From Flavobacteriales bacterium (lineage in GTDB: Bacteria > Bacteroidota > Bacteroidia > Flavobacteriales_G > Salibacteraceae), in contig JABJJW010000023.1 of assembly GCA_018660685.1 (NCBI GenBank), positions 62,001 through 126,000 of the forward strand: a stretch of DNA of 64,000 bases. The letters run 5' to 3'. The position numbers and the translations under genes are program-made. Positions within the stretch are counted from its first letter, which is position 1; each line of letters opens with the position of its first letter. Below, in pieces: positions 32,762 to 40,286 of the stretch. Below the pieces are notes generated by a model. That model was not told the origin of the DNA and did no database searches. It saw only the letters and a list, made by a program, of their open reading frames with translations.

Positions 32762-33091
32762 CTAATACATCAAATGTTGTTTAGATTTATCTCTCCAACC
32801 TGATTGATTCTTATACTTCACAAAGAATATCTTCAAATCACTTTGGTTTGGATAATCAACAAAGTATATCTTCTTATCGGATTGGTTAGGGTAATCCACA
32901 AAATACCATAACCCATTGTTCCCATCAGATTGATTCGGATAATCTACTTTGAACACCTTCAAATCACATTGATTTTCATAATCTACTACATATACCTTAA
33001 CATCAGATTGGTTAGGATACTTAACTGAGTACACCTTCTGAGAGTATGAGGTAAGTGGGAGTAGAAATAATATGAAGAGGAGGTGTTTCAT
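32762..33091 (-). CDS. Secreted short-repeat protein (DUF6150-like)
   Basis: 109 residues. Signal peptide at residues 1-18 (LLFILFLLPLTSYS, cleavage before QK). The mature protein is six imperfect copies of a 13-residue unit of the form KVYFVDYPNQSD, with one copy interrupted by a short GNNGLW insertion. The pattern matches the DUF6150 repeat proteins of Bacteroidota, whose role is unknown; alternating strand and N-Q-S-D turns suggest a small beta-solenoid or a sticky periplasmic protein. It is followed downstream by noncoding sequence with no clear terminator. Confidence 0.75.
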   Translation of the reverse strand: MKHLLFILFLLPLTSYSQKVYSVKYPNQSDVKVYVVDYENQCDLKVFKVDYPNQSDGNNGLWYFVDYPNQSDKKIYFVDYPNQSDLKIFFVKYKNQSGWRDKSKQHLMY

Positions 33092-33203: not shown

Positions 33204-33533
33204 CTATAGGGGCTCTAAGCAAAATAATTCTACCCTATAGTCCCCTATACATTGCGGAAAAAACTGATCAGACACCCTGAAATCGGCTTGGATCTGAGTG
33301 GAATCTCCTAGTGATGCTGTAAAATTAAACTGAGAAATATTTGCAGGCTCATAAATAAGGCTCTCGGAAATGATTACAAAACTGCACTCATTCGAAATAT
33401 TCGTTCTGACTAGGGCGTATGTATTTGAACACTCGGCAACTGAACCTGTACATCCGCCTTGAGTTAAGCAAATAATGATTAAACTGATATTCAGCGTTGC
33501 TATTAATAAAATGGGTGGTTTATTCTTCTGCAT
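33204..33533 (-). CDS. Small secreted protein of unknown function
   Basis: 109 residues from ATG 33533, overlapping the end of the MORN-type gene by 14 bases. The N-terminus is a signal or anchor (PPILLIATLNISLIIICLTQGGC); C22 or C28 might be lipidated but neither has an ideal lipobox. Mature part has four further cysteines (C34 in AECSN, ECSF, QCIGD, LFCLE), suggesting two disulphides. No family recognised. It is the last gene of the minus-strand unit that begins with the PapD-like chaperone. Confidence 0.65.
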   Translation of the reverse strand: MQKNKPPILLIATLNISLIIICLTQGGCTGSVAECSNTYALVRTNISNECSFVIISESLIYEPANISQFNFTASLGDSTQIQADFRVSDQFFPQCIGDYRVELFCLEPL

Positions 33534-34467
33534 TATCGTAATCAATTCTATTGATTATTTCTCCTTGATCATTGTAAATGTTTAAATGCCCAGAAATCTC
33601 TCCTCTTTGCATAAATGCGGAGCTCACTAACACTCCGTTTCCATCGAAAACCTCCCAATCCCCATTCTTCTCTCCGTTAATATAGTTTCCGCTTTCCATC
33701 ACTACACCATTTTCATGATACGAAACAAACCGACCTATCCTTTTGTTATCCAAGTAATTACACTCTGATTTAAGTTGACCACTTGAATAATAGGTTAAAT
33801 GCAGTCCATTCAGAACGTTGTCGCGATAACTCAATTTTTGAGAAATAACTTTTGAATCCACGTGGTATATCACTGTTTGACCTTGCAACCTTCCACTAAC
33901 ATAATTTTCCGACTTAATGAGCCCTCCAGCCTCTAAATAGTATAAACGCTTTCCATGTCTTATACCTAATTGAAATTTTGAAACCTCTCTTATTCCTCCC
34001 GATTCGAAATAGGTAGTTGTCTTTCCTTCACGTAAGTTCTTTTTGTAAAGGCTTTTTTCCAAAAGTGACCCATTCTCAGTAAAAAAGATTATCCACCCTT
34101 GGAGTAAATTATTTCGATACCTACCATAGCAACTGAGTTCTTCTGTTTGAATATGATACTTTTCGAAAGAGCCGTGTTGTTTCCCCTTTTTATAATTTAC
34201 TCTCTGTTCTAAATACCCATTTCGATCAAATAACCTCCACTCACCGCTGAGATTATTTTTTTTATATCCCCCCATTTGATCTGGCATCCCGTTTCTGTAA
34301 AACGAATTATAAAAGCCGCATCTAATAGTATCTCCTTCTTGATTTATTTTAACTAAATATTCTTCCCTTACAACTGTATCTCCCGTGTAAGTTACGACTA
34401 CAGTGTCAGGCTCCTGCAGAGCGTTTAATGGAAATAACGCCCCGAAATACATGAATATAATCAACAC
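33520..34467 (-). CDS. MORN_2-type repeat protein (YwqK-like)
   Basis: 315 residues with a signal peptide (IIFMYFGALFPLNALQ). From about residue 45 it consists of roughly ten repeats of about 22 residues with the pattern YKxNxLxGxWxxFxxNGxLxxxxxYKKG (for example KNNLSGEWRLFDRNGYLEQ and YINGEKNGDWEVFDGNG), the MORN_2 arrangement of so-called YwqK family proteins. The repeat probably forms a beta-meander used for binding. It begins immediately after the chaperone stop codon, so it is coexpressed with the chaperone, and could be a surface or periplasmic helper of the assembly system. Confidence 0.78.
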   Translation of the reverse strand: MLIIFMYFGALFPLNALQEPDTVVVTYTGDTVVREEYLVKINQEGDTIRCGFYNSFYRNGMPDQMGGYKKNNLSGEWRLFDRNGYLEQRVNYKKGKQHGSFEKYHIQTEELSCYGRYRNNLLQGWIIFFTENGSLLEKSLYKKNLREGKTTTYFESGGIREVSKFQLGIRHGKRLYYLEAGGLIKSENYVSGRLQGQTVIYHVDSKVISQKLSYRDNVLNGLHLTYYSSGQLKSECNYLDNKRIGRFVSYHENGVVMESGNYINGEKNGDWEVFDGNGVLVSSAFMQRGEISGHLNIYNDQGEIINRIDYDNAEE

Positions 34468-35223
34468 CTAGTCTAAAACAATTTGAACTCCCTTTAAATC
34501 CTCATTTGGGCTATAATCCATCAAAACCGTTAGCATTGCTTTTGGATACTCATGATCGGGAATCTCGGTGATTAGTGTCTTCTCTTCCCCAGGCAATAAC
34601 CCAGCTGCCATTTCGTTTATCTCTACTTCGTCTCCCGTCCTAACATTAGTAAGGAGAAACGTGACTTTTGCTTTTAATTTCGAATCCCCGGTATTTCTAA
34701 TGAGCACACTGTATCCTGAGTCGATTTTTTCAGGAGTAAAAATTTCCGCATCGGGCATAGCTTGGTCGGTATGCGCATATACTATTACTGAAATGGCAGG
34801 TTTTATTTTGACCCCCGCGCCCAACGATGCTACTTCCTCAAGCACTGACACTTGGTTCTCAGCAATTATTGTCAATTTCCCCCATCTCATTTTGGAGCTC
34901 ACAATAGGGTCAATTGTTACCGTGAAAAAACTTTTCTCATTTGGCTGCAATAGCAAAGTTGAGGGAGAGATATTCAATGCTCCCTTCAAAGTTCGGGGTG
35001 TAGAACCAAACTCGGCAGACATCTTTTTCCCTTCGTCTTCTATGATAAAATCATATTCCTTGACATTAAAGATTTTTGGGGAATCAGTATGATTAAAAAC
35101 CATGATGTCTCTTGATACACGCCCTCGGCTAGCATTAGCCTCTATTAGAACCGGGCTCACCTCAAAATCCTGCGCTACGAGGCTGTTAGCCATAACAAAT
35201 AGTAAAAAGGGGAAATATCTCAT
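34468..35223 (-). CDS. PapD-like periplasmic chaperone
   Basis: 251 residues, signal peptide 1-17 (FLLFVMANSLVAQ). The mature part reads as two Ig-like domains: an N-terminal domain (FEVSPVLIEANASRGRVSRDIMVFNHTD, then ISPSTLLLQPNEKSFFTVTI, the typical beta-strand pair of pilus chaperones) and a C-terminal domain (residues about 150-245, GYSVLIRNTGDSKLKAKV, LLPGEEKTLI). Such chaperones deliver subunits to an outer-membrane usher. The conserved Arg-Lys pair of classical PapD is not evident, so it is a divergent member. It is transcribed away from the two subunit genes from a shared control region. Confidence 0.72.
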   Translation of the reverse strand: MRYFPFLLFVMANSLVAQDFEVSPVLIEANASRGRVSRDIMVFNHTDSPKIFNVKEYDFIIEDEGKKMSAEFGSTPRTLKGALNISPSTLLLQPNEKSFFTVTIDPIVSSKMRWGKLTIIAENQVSVLEEVASLGAGVKIKPAISVIVYAHTDQAMPDAEIFTPEKIDSGYSVLIRNTGDSKLKAKVTFLLTNVRTGDEVEINEMAAGLLPGEEKTLITEIPDHEYPKAMLTVLMDYSPNEDLKGVQIVLD

Positions 35224-35244
35224 CTGTCTTTTTAAAAGTCAACA

Positions 35245-35276
35245 CAAATATAGTTTCCCCAAGCTCCACAATCCAA
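35245..35276 (-). promoter_or_regulatory. Promoter of the chaperone operon
   Basis: Minus strand: -33 TTG (35274-35276), 21-base spacer, -7 TATATTTG (35245-35252), an exact consensus match, 22 bases upstream of the ATG at 35223. Confidence 0.7.
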
Positions 35277-35299
35277 TTTTTCGTTACGCTCACAGAAAA

Positions 35300-35332
35300 T
35301 TCGTAACCGTATTAGAATGCAATGTACTTTTG
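35300..35332 (+). promoter_or_regulatory. Promoter of the subunit/barrel operon
   Basis: -33-like TTCG (35300-35303), 21-base spacer, -7 TACTTTTG (35325-35332), exact TAnnTTTG. It is back to back with the chaperone promoter, 24 bases apart, leaving room for shared regulation. The leader before ATG 35363 is A-rich (AAAAAAAGTATAAAA). Confidence 0.6.
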
Positions 35333-35362
35333 ATGTTAGGTTAACTCAAAAAAAGTATAAAA

Positions 35363-36043
35363 ATGAAAACCAATCACCTAAATTTATTAACCGCGTGTAC
35401 CATTCTGGTCAGCCTAATGGTTTCCACCCTCTCTAGTGCTCAAGCCGTTAGAGATCGTAATGTCATTCCTGTAGCAGTAAACTTAAACCAAGTTTTAAGA
35501 ATGTCTATTTACGATGGCGGTAACATTGAATTCGTCTTCAACACCATCGATGATTATCGTGATGGTTTATCCGGTGACGCAGCGTCTGCTTCTGCTAATG
35601 CTGCTACCTCTTTCGGGTTTTATCAATCCTCTTTTACAATTTCATCATCTACTGAATGGGATTTAATGTATGGAGCCGAAAACGCAACTTTTATCGGAGT
35701 AGATGACGGGTCGACTCCAAACACTTTAGCATTGGATAATGTAGGTCTTCAACTTGCAGCAAATGGAGCACACACCTTTGGAACGGGTGAAATCATAAGC
35801 GCCCCCACCACGCTCGCTACTGTTGTGGCTGACCTAGATTTGTATCCAGTTGAGCTCATAGGTTGGGATAATACCGGCGCCTCTAATGCAGGAGATGAGG
35901 CAGATAATGATTTCACCATCACGTGGAGATGTGGCACTGCAGAAGGAGATATGAATGCTGTTTCATTAATTGAGCAGACAGCAGTTGATCCCGATAGATA
36001 TGTTGTCAACGTTCTATTTGAATTGCAGGTCTCTGATAATTAA
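35363..36043 (+). CDS. Secreted subunit-like protein 1 of the chaperone/usher-like locus
   Basis: 226 residues. Signal peptide 1-27 (cleavage after SSAQA). The mature protein is beta-rich, acidic and Ala/Ser/Thr-rich, contains no paired cysteines, and ends with the strand VNVLFELQVSD, as expected for a pilin-type C-terminal strand. The block LRMSIYDGGNIEFVFNTIDDYRDG (about 45-68) recurs in the next gene (LSVLSGSSVDFNFQTISDYKNG), so the two are paralogues. First gene after the divergent promoter, suggesting the major subunit. Family not recognised; pilin role inferred from context with a PapD-like chaperone. Confidence 0.65.
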   Translation: MKTNHLNLLTACTILVSLMVSTLSSAQAVRDRNVIPVAVNLNQVLRMSIYDGGNIEFVFNTIDDYRDGLSGDAASASANAATSFGFYQSSFTISSSTEWDLMYGAENATFIGVDDGSTPNTLALDNVGLQLAANGAHTFGTGEIISAPTTLATVVADLDLYPVELIGWDNTGASNAGDEADNDFTITWRCGTAEGDMNAVSLIEQTAVDPDRYVVNVLFELQVSDN

Positions 36044-36054
36044 AATGTTAATAT

Positions 36055-36091
36055 AAGGCGAAAGATTACGGTTTTTCGCCTTTATCTTTTT
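36055..36091 (+). terminator. Intergenic hairpin with T-rich tail (attenuator or weak terminator)
   Basis: Perfect 9-bp stem (36055-36063 with 36074-36082), 10-base loop, then TATCTTTTT ending directly at the ATG of the next gene (36092). It would end some transcripts after the first subunit gene, or hide the translation start of the second. Confidence 0.7.
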
Positions 36092-36784
36092 ATGAATCTT
36101 CTGCGAAACTCCGTCCTTATTTTTGCGCTTTTTTCAATAACACAGGCCCGAGGACAGTGCTCTCCTTGCAATGATCCTGCTCCAGTTGGTATAATTGATT
36201 ATAACAGCGCTAGACTTAGCGTGCTATCTGGGTCGAGTGTAGATTTCAATTTCCAAACCATCAGCGACTATAAGAATGGAATAACAAAATCCAATAGTAC
36301 AGTCATGGGAATATCAGTTTGTAATTGCAATTCCGAAGGGGGTACCTCTGCGGATCCTGTAGCAGGATCGACCATTACTGGTTACTCAATATATTTAGAC
36401 ACAGATGACCCCAATTTCACGGGGTTGAATCCTGCCAATTCGCTTCCACTCTGTGCTCTAGAGGCCTCTGCAACAGTATCAGCAGGTTTCGCTGCATCCG
36501 CAGTAACCGTCACGGGTACGAAAGTTGCTTTGGACCAAATACCAACCGCAGAGGGGCCAATCTTTCAAGAAGATAATTCCCCTTTACAGGTAGCTGATCG
36601 GTTTTGGACGACTGATCAAATTAGTATTGATTATTTTATGGGAGTATCTCCAGCAAGTGGACCTTGTGCTTTATCCGTTCCTTTTATTGATGCGGCCGGA
36701 GGGTATGTGCCAGATGCATACTATGTTACTATATCATTCACCTTGGTCCCTGAGTGCACAGTATGTCTAGACCCTAATTACTAG
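36092..36784 (+). CDS. Secreted subunit-like protein 2
   Basis: 230 residues with a signal peptide (LIFALFSITQARG, cleavage before QCSPC). It shares the block LSVLSGSSVDFNFQTISDYKNG with subunit 1 but has additional cysteines: CSPC at the mature start, VCNCN near 86, C126, C206 and ECTVC at the C-terminus. The cysteines suggest disulphide-stabilised or adhesive/tip function, while subunit 1 has none (inference). The C-terminal strand AYYVTISFTLVP is again pilin-like. It starts within the tail of an intergenic hairpin, which may lower its expression relative to subunit 1. Confidence 0.62.
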   Translation: MNLLRNSVLIFALFSITQARGQCSPCNDPAPVGIIDYNSARLSVLSGSSVDFNFQTISDYKNGITKSNSTVMGISVCNCNSEGGTSADPVAGSTITGYSIYLDTDDPNFTGLNPANSLPLCALEASATVSAGFAASAVTVTGTKVALDQIPTAEGPIFQEDNSPLQVADRFWTTDQISIDYFMGVSPASGPCALSVPFIDAAGGYVPDAYYVTISFTLVPECTVCLDPNY

Positions 36785-36797
36785 AGGTCTATAAAAA

Positions 36798-39700
36798 ATG
36801 CGATTAGGCCAAATCATACTCTTGTCCTTCTTTTCCGCGGTAATAACAGCTCCCGCCTTCTCACAGCGCTCCGATACGAATGTTCTTGAATTAAGCGACA
36901 GCGCAGTGAACGAGCTAACAATAGACAGTTTATTATTTCTAGACAGCATAGCTAAGTCGATTGATCCGTTTTTTGATAGATCCGACAGTATTAACGCAGA
37001 AAAATTAACCCTCCCAACTGATAGTATTAGTAAAGAACTTAAGTTTTCCATTTATAAGCAAGATATCGATGATCAAACCTCTGTTTTCAATAGTTTGGTT
37101 TTTCTCAACAACTCACAGGAGCTCACATCAGGTGAGTTAAGTCTACAATTACCAAATGGCTGGAGCCATTTGGCCTCTCAACAATTAGAGTTTACAGCTA
37201 ATCCTGGTGAAACAACTTATATTCCAATGCGACTGATTGCCCCTAAGAATTTAGAAGGCGGTCGATCATACATCATAGGCGCCACAGTGAGCCTTAAAGA
37301 TGGCGAAAAATTAAAGGCTTATGCGTACGTCCAAAAAACAACTCTCTTCAATTTAACTGCTATAAATCAAACCAGTTCCATTCGTATAAACCCCATCACC
37401 CTCGCTGGTGAGACAGGCATAAGGATAATCAATGATGGCAATGTGAATGAACCGATTCAAATATCTTTTGACCATTCACTTGACTATGATTTGATTACCC
37501 CTAACTCACTTGTCTTGACTTCTTTTAATTTAAAGGCAAAATCAGACACATTAATTTCTCTAAAGATTAGGAGAACGCTGATTAAGGATTCATTAGATGG
37601 TAATAATGCTTTACGGGATGAATTGCGCTATAAGATCTCCTCATCCAATGCACAAATAGAGGGGGGCTTTTTTATTGAAAATTTTCAATCAAGCCTATTA
37701 GATGACACGTATAAAAGACTTTCACCGCTATTCATTTCGGGAGGAGTTTACAATATAGGGAGTCCTGGCGGAGAACGATATATGACTGCTGCAGGTGGGA
37801 AACTTCAATTAAGTGCTAAAAAAGATTTAGATTATTTCTTAGGAAGCTACAATTTAGGCCAAGTTGGAAGCGCAGCACTCGGAGATGGCGCAATTAGAGG
37901 GGTTTACCAATATAGACTTGGATTTAGAGCCGGGTTCAATCGATTTGAATTAAACAGCCGACTCAATAACAAGCATATCCCAATCTGCTATCAAGGCATA
38001 AGATATCAATACCATCGTGAGAGAATTATCTTTTCATCAGAATTAGGCAAGAGTTACCGCCCCGATACTTATGTGTCTAGCTCTTCACTTGCGGTAAGCC
38101 GATTCGGATTACCCTTCAACTTAGGATATTCCCAAACCTTTGGGAATAGAAATTATAATTTAAGTGCATTCGAAGCCGGAATTAAGACGCCTGTGTTTCG
38201 TTTTTTAAGATTAGGTGGTGGTGCTACCTATTACATGGGCGAAATAACCACACCTACAGCGGCAGCACCACGAAGTATTAATCAATTTGGTTATTACGCT
38301 GCTGGAGATTTTAATGCAGGAAAAGTTTCTGTGTCCGGACGTTGGAATTTTAGGCCCGTCAATGGCTTTACTATTTCTGGTGATCGTGCCTCATTGGTAT
38401 TATCAGGAAAAATTAAGACCAATAATGCCTTTAATCACCGTTTTGACCTTACTAATATGAGTCAAGATTTTACACGTGAAGATTTTTCTAATAACATAGA
38501 AAATAGATTCGCGTCTTGGACAACCACTTACAATACTGCTAGTAATATGATGGTGAGCCTCACACCTCAGTATCGCAGTTTGGTCAGAGAGAATGTCGCG
38601 CCCTCCTCGACCACTAGACTAAGCACATTTTATTATGGTTCATCCTTTGGCATTAGTAAAAGGCTAAGTCACTTAGATGTTATTTCGGTTTTTGCTAACC
38701 CAATGATTACCACTGCCGTCTATGATTTTGAACCAACCCTCATAAGAGGTTACACTGTTCGAACCGACCTAAATCCGGCATACAATTTAGGGTTGCGCTA
38801 TACTAGAAATAATACATTAAATATCACAGGAGACGTATTTAGGGGCCCTTTCTTTATTTATAACTATTCCGTAATCACAGCAGATACAGCGATCATCCCG
38901 TTCTCCTCAGGCTTAATACGAGTATCGGCAGGATATAATAAAGAATTCAAAATTTCGAATATTGATTTAATTCTAAATCTAAGAACCTTTTATAGCCTAG
39001 ACGTTGTTACCTTATCAGAGCAATTTAATGTTGGAGCTAATGCTGTCGTTATGCTTCCGAAAGGAATCAGCATAACTAGCTACGTCAATTGGTTTGCTTC
39101 TTCCTATGAAAGTCCAACGGGAGAGATTAGCAATAAAAACATCAACATAAACGCAGCAATCAAAAAGTCCTTCTATTGGCAACAACCCTATGAGAAATTT
39201 TATAAGCTGATAATTTTATGTTTCGAGGACTTAAACGGTAACGGAATCAGAGAAAATAATGAGCCCATTTTGCCCAATGTGAATATTAGCTTGAGAGCTG
39301 AAAAACAAGATTTAATTAATAAAAAGCATTCCCGGTCACCCAATACTGATCTCATTACGGATATTTCTGGCAGGGTAAGGTTTAACAAGATCCCTGCTGC
39401 GACTTATGATATTAAGTTTTATGAGCTTTTTAATGTGTCTGATTTGCACCCGACTTTTGGGTTTGAGCAAGAAATACTTCTAAATGAGGATAAGATAATT
39501 GAAGTCCCATTTATCAAGAATTATCACGTCCGAGGTTCAGTAGCCATAATTAAAGCCAAGAGATCGCGATTAGCATCATTTAATTTGGAGAGTCTCATAA
39601 TTACCGCAGAGTCAGAAAATGGTGAGGTTTATAAAACATTGACGGATGAATTTGGCAACTACAATTTATCAATCCCAGGAGCGGGAATTTACAACCTGAC

Positions 39701-40286
39701 CTGCAAGCATGGCTACCAAGAAATGTTAGAATCTAAAAATGCCGAGGCTCTTGTTGACTTCAATGGAATGAAGGAATATAGCTACGACTTTATATTTTAT
39801 GAAAAGGATCGATTGATTGATTTTTCTGGAGGAGAGTTAGGGGAAAAGGAGCCAGCGGAAGAGCAAATAATGGACGAAATGAAGGAGCCTTTCTCCCAAC
39901 CCAATGAAATGCCAGATTTCTTTAAGTCTCTGGCTGATGAAATGAGCGGGGATAAATTAGAGCCATATAAATACCCTGATAAAACCATATCTCGGCAAGA
40001 AGCTATTGAACAAATTGGCAATGATTTCGAAAGACAAATTGAATATAGATTAGTGATCGGCTCCTACAAAGAGTCTTTAAAAAATGAAGACTTAGAGCGA
40101 ATGATTGACGTAGCTAAAAACAATAAACTCAACATTGAAGTCATAAACAACTACTTGATAGTGAACCGTGATTTTATTGATAAAGAAAGTGCTGACAGGT
40201 TCTCTGATAGTCTCAGAAACGTTGGGATTAAAACGGCTGTCATGCTAGGAAAGTATGAAGGTGTTCTCATTGAGCTTGACGAGTAA
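36798..40286 (+). CDS. Large outer-membrane barrel protein, usher-like, with SdrD-like and SPOR-like domains
   Basis: 1162 residues, signal peptide 1-22. Residues about 85-300 look like two Ig/NEW3-type domains (LSLQLPNGWSHL, RIINDGNVNEPIQISF). Residues about 305-790 are a beta-barrel-like region of amphipathic strands with aromatic ends (YFLGSYNLGQVGSAALGDGAIRG, LGYSQTFGNRNYNLSAFEAGI). Residues about 800-905 form an SdrD B/carboxypeptidase-regulatory-like domain (CFEDLNGNGIRENNEPILPNVNI), followed by another at 908-1005, an acidic linker, and a SPOR-like domain at about 1083-1155 (YRLVIGSYKESLKN). Usher role is inferred from its operon with a PapD-like chaperone and subunit genes; another porin-like function cannot be excluded. 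Confidence 0.68.
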   Translation: MRLGQIILLSFFSAVITAPAFSQRSDTNVLELSDSAVNELTIDSLLFLDSIAKSIDPFFDRSDSINAEKLTLPTDSISKELKFSIYKQDIDDQTSVFNSLVFLNNSQELTSGELSLQLPNGWSHLASQQLEFTANPGETTYIPMRLIAPKNLEGGRSYIIGATVSLKDGEKLKAYAYVQKTTLFNLTAINQTSSIRINPITLAGETGIRIINDGNVNEPIQISFDHSLDYDLITPNSLVLTSFNLKAKSDTLISLKIRRTLIKDSLDGNNALRDELRYKISSSNAQIEGGFFIENFQSSLLDDTYKRLSPLFISGGVYNIGSPGGERYMTAAGGKLQLSAKKDLDYFLGSYNLGQVGSAALGDGAIRGVYQYRLGFRAGFNRFELNSRLNNKHIPICYQGIRYQYHRERIIFSSELGKSYRPDTYVSSSSLAVSRFGLPFNLGYSQTFGNRNYNLSAFEAGIKTPVFRFLRLGGGATYYMGEITTPTAAAPRSINQFGYYAAGDFNAGKVSVSGRWNFRPVNGFTISGDRASLVLSGKIKTNNAFNHRFDLTNMSQDFTREDFSNNIENRFASWTTTYNTASNMMVSLTPQYRSLVRENVAPSSTTRLSTFYYGSSFGISKRLSHLDVISVFANPMITTAVYDFEPTLIRGYTVRTDLNPAYNLGLRYTRNNTLNITGDVFRGPFFIYNYSVITADTAIIPFSSGLIRVSAGYNKEFKISNIDLILNLRTFYSLDVVTLSEQFNVGANAVVMLPKGISITSYVNWFASSYESPTGEISNKNININAAIKKSFYWQQPYEKFYKLIILCFEDLNGNGIRENNEPILPNVNISLRAEKQDLINKKHSRSPNTDLITDISGRVRFNKIPAATYDIKFYELFNVSDLHPTFGFEQEILLNEDKIIEVPFIKNYHVRGSVAIIKAKRSRLASFNLESLIITAESENGEVYKTLTDEFGNYNLSIPGAGIYNLTCKHGYQEMLESKNAEALVDFNGMKEYSYDFIFYEKDRLIDFSGGELGEKEPAEEQIMDEMKEPFSQPNEMPDFFKSLADEMSGDKLEPYKYPDKTISRQEAIEQIGNDFERQIEYRLVIGSYKESLKNEDLERMIDVAKNNKLNIEVINNYLIVNRDFIDKESADRFSDSLRNVGIKTAVMLGKYEGVLIELDE
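37152..37173. repeat. Inverted repeat inside the barrel gene
   Basis: Perfect 10-base arms (37152-37161 and 37164-37173) around a GG centre, within the coding sequence of the Ig-like part. May be coincidental. Confidence 0.8.

Follow-up and report, generated by a model that had tools for sequence, protein, structure and literature searches.

The window examined in this study is a 64,000-nucleotide stretch of DNA from a Flavobacteriales assembly of 2.58 Mb, and it contains a locus with genes on both strands. On the minus strand, a 251-aa exported protein with two predicted Ig-like domains in the PapD arrangement is encoded at 34468-35223 and is referred to here as the PapD-like periplasmic chaperone. 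Directly after the chaperone gene comes a gene for an exported MORN_2-repeat protein (33520-34467, minus strand; PF07661, E 1.7e-16), and a small lipoprotein-like ORF of 113 aa (33204-33545, minus strand) is kept beside the MORN gene within the genus. On the plus strand, subunit 1, the probable major pilin (35363-36043; 226 aa including the signal peptide), is followed by a 12-bp hairpin with a U-tract (36055-36082), by subunit 2, the probable tip or first-assembled subunit (36092-36784; 230 aa with a signal peptide), and by a 1162-aa outer-membrane barrel protein (36798-40286) that is the putative usher-like secretion platform. Adjoining the locus, at 32762-33091, is a gene for a small secreted DUF6150 protein (E 5.7e-22) with repeats of a 'VDYPNQSDxKxY'-like motif. 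The closest named relatives of the locus are found in Flavobacteriales/Salibacteraceae metagenome bins, with identities of up to 95% in subunit 1. A preliminary description of this region, made without database searches, had listed the ORFs of the locus, and all of them exist where it placed them; the minus-strand MORN-type repeat protein and small secreted protein that it reported were also confirmed as ORFs, the small one being lipoprotein-like.

The preliminary description had proposed that the chaperone, subunit and barrel genes should be checked for co-occurrence in other genomes. Relatives were drawn from whole genomes and from 65 named genome contigs found with a subunit 1 profile, which are labelled Flavobacteriales, Bacteroidales, Marinilabiliales, Chitinophaga and other Bacteroidota. 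Linkage was counted from HMM annotation of the relatives' loci, 54 of which had enough flanking sequence. Subunit 1 is conserved in 64 named loci, and the genes do co-occur: the barrel gene lies downstream of subunit 1 on the same strand in 54/54 testable loci, far above chance, and subunit 2 is adjacent in 51 of the 54. The chaperone is present in 41 loci, with the MORN gene beside it in 40 of these, and 23 loci share the arrangement of the window, with the chaperone immediately upstream in divergent orientation. When only relatives with at least 18 kb of sequence are considered, the chaperone is in the locus in 25/32, and in some relatives the chaperone-MORN pair is found elsewhere in the genome. 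These data show that the genes are linked.

A broader sample of 296 Bacteroidota genomes yielded chaperone profile matches in 32, and a recognisable barrel homologue was close to the chaperone in 11 of the 15 neighbourhoods taken from this set. With the subunit profile, the source genome was the only one of this sample of 296 in which subunits were detected; in distant loci the subunits were recognised only by gene context and profile-profile comparison. Distant Bacteroidota loci combine tandem pilins, chaperone and barrel with a FimH-like two-domain protein, which is 343-478 residues long, lies near the barrel and has its pilin-like domain at the C-terminus, as in FimH. Three distant loci (L147, L148 and L149) have tandem arrays of four to six nearly identical pilin-like genes next to the chaperone, the barrel and a two-domain protein of 478 residues, and each has a response-regulator-like gene nearby.

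The MORN protein is a constant yet unexplained partner of the chaperone, and to our knowledge no pilus system has a MORN_2-type partner. It carries a lipoprotein-type signal in some relatives. Some additional variation was observed in the relatives' loci. Nine of them have an ORF of ~620-680 residues between the chaperone-MORN pair and subunit 1, and three others have a larger ORF with MORN matches in the same place. The barrel gene of one close relative (95% identical; L076 11437-14924, on G004 contig 12) is broken into two overlapping frames, which could be a sequencing error or a recent pseudogene.

The preliminary description had called the minus-strand protein a two-domain PapD-like chaperone, and had noted that a match to a non-pilus Ig family would refute the proposed system. 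The identification held, as the protein matches fimbrial chaperones in both fold and profile, with WxLIP about equally close. An AF2 model built from 41 relatives (pLDDT 88.8) gave VIA Z scores of 14.5 for CfaA (4ncd), 13.2 for WxLIP, 12.6 for CsuC, 12.1 for Caf1M and 12.0 for FimC, and scores of 11-12 were obtained across the comparisons with FimC and PapD; the rmsd of the VIA matches was 4-6 A over ~180-200 residues. Foldseek also groups the model with fimbrial chaperones. When the chaperone was compared by hhalign with nine E. coli K-12 chaperone-usher chaperones, a probability of 94% was obtained over both domains, rising to 96% with distant members added, and reversed controls stayed below 1%. 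These data show the kinship. The protein falls below the Pfam cut-off for PapD_N. A single-sequence search of the PDB gave no match, and profiles were required to detect the kinship. No classical usher or PapD families were found in the source genome.

Several features of the chaperone bear on how it might hold a subunit. Residues 138, 140, 144, 146 and 148 are hydrophobic in all 41 relatives, and the alternating hydrophobic and polar residues of 138-148 resemble a G1 donor strand, although a role as such a strand is inferred from sequence alone. The least confident inner part of the AF2 model is ~121-140, and the flexibility that the model predicts there would be in keeping with an F1-G1 loop that has no subunit bound. 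No conserved basic residue was found at the chaperone positions aligned with the Arg8/Lys112 cationic pair of classical chaperones, in what is a remote alignment (13% identity). An Arg is present at position 143 in 31/41 relatives and is missing from the window protein. In the AF2 model the chain closes with a beta strand that reaches residue 250 of the 251, and there is no C-terminal transmembrane helix. For a distant chaperone homologue, that of L149, weak similarity (21%) was seen to DUF916 proteins encoded by Streptomyces plasmids (NZ_CP115937.1 and three others), and this points to a wider PapD/WxLIP superfamily.

Subunits 1 and 2 had been described as related proteins with signal peptides, which was upheld; they have in common a C-terminal '[PD]xYxVxVxFxL' strand and an N-terminal core motif. 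A joint profile of the two matches the filament proteins of PDB entries 9ikk (TLP-2, E 6e-20 over profile positions 26-207 of 212) and 9ikj (TLP-1, E 3e-18), and each of these entries contains 16 chains. TLP stands for Tsinghua Lotus Pond, and TLP-1 and TLP-2 are attributed to the CryoSeek study of freshwater (Wang et al. 2024), a paper that is cited in PMC12967142. The kinship with filament proteins is also shown in a direct comparison, in which TLP-2 and subunit 1 of locus L069 are 42% identical across 236 alignment columns (E 6e-52); L069 carries chaperone, subunit 1, subunit 2 and barrel in one gene run. The subunits matched no family in Pfam or NCBIfam, including no pilin or spore-coat-U family in Pfam, and hhalign against the K-12 pilins gave no detectable homology to FimA-type pilins (10-15%).

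The two subunits differ at their N-termini. The subunit 1 extension is hydrophobic at residues 35, 37, 39 and 41 in 100, 99, 100 and 100% of 68 sequences, respectively, with small or polar residues between. The distance from the signal peptide to the conserved core phenylalanine has a median of 30 residues in subunit 1 compared to 17 in subunit 2, and most subunit 2 proteins lack the alternating extension. In the window's genus the subunit 2 N-terminus is longer and contains Cys and Pro, and it too is without the alternating pattern. The data thus show that subunit 1 carries the alternating extension and that most subunit 2 proteins do not. What it does is inferred: it is what a donor strand looks like (in the window, residues 28-43, 35444-35491 on the plus strand, AVRDRNVIPVAVNLNQ), though the incomplete Ig fold has not been modelled, and a subunit without it is what a tip subunit looks like.

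The hairpin between the two subunit genes is also a shown feature of the family. In the window it has a folding energy of -14.2 kcal/mol (z -3.05), and a terminator-like hairpin is present at this position in 49/54 relatives, whereas the same rule finds one in 35% of shuffled sequences. The mean fold z of the stretch separating subunit 1 from subunit 2 is -4.34, and that of the stretch between subunit 2 and the barrel gene is -1.27. Among close relatives the hairpin sequence varies and the pairing is kept. An attenuator or processing signal would fit these data, with partial termination or mRNA processing favouring the major subunit, but this role is inferred only from the sequence. Signals that favour the major subunit in this way occur in several chaperone-usher operons.

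The AF2 model of the barrel protein (pLDDT 74) has two Ig-like domains at the N-terminus, then the barrel and the C-terminal beta-sandwiches, and, after a disordered linker, a SPOR-type domain. The periplasmic Ig/NEW3-like pair spans residues 78-300 (37029-37697; PF10633 E 1.3e-4, AF2 strands), the transmembrane barrel residues 311-792 (37728-39173), the beta-sandwich domains residues 800-1003 (39195-39806; SdrD_B PF17210 E 2e-6, CarboxypepD_reg-like PF13620 E 2e-4) and the SPOR-type peptidoglycan-binding domain residues 1080-1160 (40035-40277; AF2 topology), all on the plus strand. The preliminary description had assigned Ig-like, SdrD-like and SPOR-like domains to this protein and had stated that it lacks usher motifs, and both statements held, the domains from Pfam and, for SPOR, from the model and the relatives. 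The PF00577 usher family was not detected in the barrel, in the source genome or in the 296 Bacteroidota genomes, while the E. coli control was positive. Periplasmic N-terminal domains and two C-terminal beta-sandwich domains flank the barrel in an usher-like layout, although the families differ from those of FimD. The 24-stranded barrel with an inserted plug that is typical of ushers was not seen in the model, which predicts ~26 strands (AF2/DSSP), no plug-sized insertion and a longest inter-strand stretch of near 20 residues.

Comparisons of the barrel with known proteins gave mixed results. Among outer-membrane proteins, Foldseek matches it best to FimD chains. In VIA, however, chain B of 6r2q (Mtr complex) scored highest (Z 18.7), and TonB-dependent receptors (15.8) were level with FimD/PapC (14.6-16.2); VIA fails to tell usher barrels from other large barrels, and the fold search therefore leaves the kinship of the barrel undecided. 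The barrel proper showed no homology to K-12 ushers by hhalign (5-14%). Only the C-terminal beta-sandwich of a combined barrel profile matched, to the FimD C-terminal domain (74%, E 2.7e-5; reversed and shuffled controls 0-2%). The barrel family profile matches SPOR 1x60 (E 7e-4). When the C-terminal pieces of barrels from 42 relatives were scanned with Pfam, 9 of them had SPOR and 10 had an OmpA domain. Peptidoglycan anchoring, itself an inference, would therefore be common but not universal, and distant barrels of ~930 residues end before the SPOR/OmpA region. A phylum-wide barrel profile mostly caught OmpA domains through its C-terminus (~990-1170), and the 77-genome count obtained with it was not used.

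Together, these data suggest that the locus likely encodes a chaperone-usher-like pilus of Bacteroidota, that is, a surface fibre and its assembly machine. The preliminary description had proposed such a pathway, and the proposal is supported because of the chaperone fold, the N-terminal extension of subunit 1, the homology to filament proteins and the strict co-occurrence of the genes; homology of the barrel to ushers remains unproven, and its usher function is inferred. In the proposed model, subunits 1 and 2 would be exported to the periplasm and held there by the PapD-like chaperone, which would lend its G1 strand. The barrel would act as the outer-membrane assembly and secretion platform, with its N-terminal Ig-like domains receiving the chaperone-subunit complexes, and the subunits would be joined by donor-strand exchange during passage through the pore. 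Subunit 2, having no donor strand, would go in first and become the tip, and repeats of subunit 1 would build up the shaft, with every new copy giving its N-terminal strand to the one before. The hairpin between the genes would keep subunit 1 in excess over subunit 2, and the SPOR (or OmpA) domain at the C-terminus of the barrel would tie the platform to peptidoglycan. That donor strands are exchanged, that secretion runs through the barrel, that subunit 2 is the tip and that the platform is anchored are all inferences. Several points speak against the pilus reading: the barrel proper lacks both a plug and sequence homology to ushers, and its model is matched about equally by TonB-dependent receptors; the subunits have no detectable FimA-type homology, Arg8/Lys112 are not conserved in the profile alignment and WxLIP is about as close to the chaperone; and the chaperone is outside the locus in some relatives, with no models available for subunits or complexes. 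No description of this gene set or machine was found in the literature searched, which excluded the primary CryoSeek paper.

Other explanations of the locus were considered. The subunits might polymerise by donor-strand exchange and exit by another route, with the barrel serving as a peptidoglycan-anchored base or attachment point instead of a secretion pore. The lack of clear usher homology, the missing plug and the SPOR/OmpA anchoring in many relatives are in favour of this. Against it, no other gene neighbours subunit 1 as constantly as the barrel does, the barrel protein keeps the usher-like order of N-terminal periplasmic domains, large barrel and two beta-sandwich domains, and no PF00577 usher was found in the 296 Bacteroidota genomes. 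A mere base is considered unlikely. Less plausible still is a WxL-like surface complex, in which the two-Ig protein is a structural partner that remains attached to the small proteins, like WxLIP to WxL proteins in Gram-positives, and no long filament is made. WxLIP is indeed among the best matches to the chaperone (sequence E 5e-5 as well as the fold score). However, CfaA matches as well or better, the chaperone has no C-terminal membrane helix of the kind described for WxLIP (PMC10599100), and the filament proteins to which the subunits are homologous were deposited as assemblies of 16 chains. This reading is considered very unlikely.

It is also possible that the locus is an extremely diverged archaic (sigma) chaperone-usher pathway whose barrel derives from FimD/CsuD-type ushers, which would be a version of the main reading and not an alternative to it. 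The closeness of the chaperone to CfaA and CsuC, the match of the combined barrel profile to the FimD C-terminal domain (reversed control 2%) and the occurrence of archaic pathways in many phyla (PMC9452303) are consistent with this idea. On the other hand, PF00577 is absent from barrel and genomes alike, the modelled strand number and missing plug do not fit, and the subunits match no Pfam pilin or spore-coat-U family. A bolder reading is that Bacteroidota invented their own donor-strand pilus platform, a plug-less barrel of ~26 strands that is often peptidoglycan-anchored and not descended from FimD, and joined it to a chaperone of the PapD type and to a pilin family of their own. This reading is possible but is held to be somewhat less likely than not; if it is true, the machine would make TLP-type freshwater filaments. 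The chaperone-usher-like pilus remains the preferred reading, in which the locus is inferred to work like a chaperone-usher pathway, and the origin of its pore, by divergence from an usher or by independent invention, is left open.

Of the known systems, the alternative (CfaA) and archaic (CsuC-CsuA/B-CsuD-CsuE) chaperone-usher pathways are similar in having clustered genes and a two-Ig PapD-like chaperone. The likeness extends to an alternating N-terminal strand of donor type in the subunit, a probable tip subunit without a donor strand, a large barrel in the outer membrane with beta domains on either side of it in the sequence, and FimH-like two-domain proteins in distant relatives. The locus differs from them in its barrel, which lacks PF00577 and a plug, has ~26 predicted strands and in many members has a peptidoglycan-binding C-terminus, and also in its subunits of no Pfam pilin family, its constant MORN partner and its often divergent chaperone gene. 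TLP-1 and TLP-2 are homologous to the locus subunits over nearly their whole length, but their PDB entries contain the filament protein only. WxLIP (DUF916/DUF3324) of Gram-positive WxL clusters shares a tandem Ig-like fold and detectable sequence similarity with the chaperone; however, it has a C-terminal membrane helix and WxL-domain partners, with no barrel and no such subunits. The Type V (FimA/Mfa1) pili of Bacteroidia are likewise Bacteroidota pili, and their assembly has been proposed to follow a donor-strand mechanism (PMC4789730). Type V pili are made from lipoprotein precursors that are matured by a protease, and are not known to have a PapD-like chaperone or a dedicated barrel. No match to Type V pilus proteins was obtained in the searches made.

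Chaperone-usher pili are a paradigm of ATP-free secretion and assembly and are best known from Proteobacteria. A counterpart in many Bacteroidota lineages, with a pore that cannot be recognised as an usher, would separate the essential parts of the mechanism from those that are lineage-specific. It would also provide candidate genes for the assembly of filaments whose structures have been deposited in the PDB, and it offers a set of genes with which adhesion and the formation of biofilms by environmental Bacteroidota can be tested.
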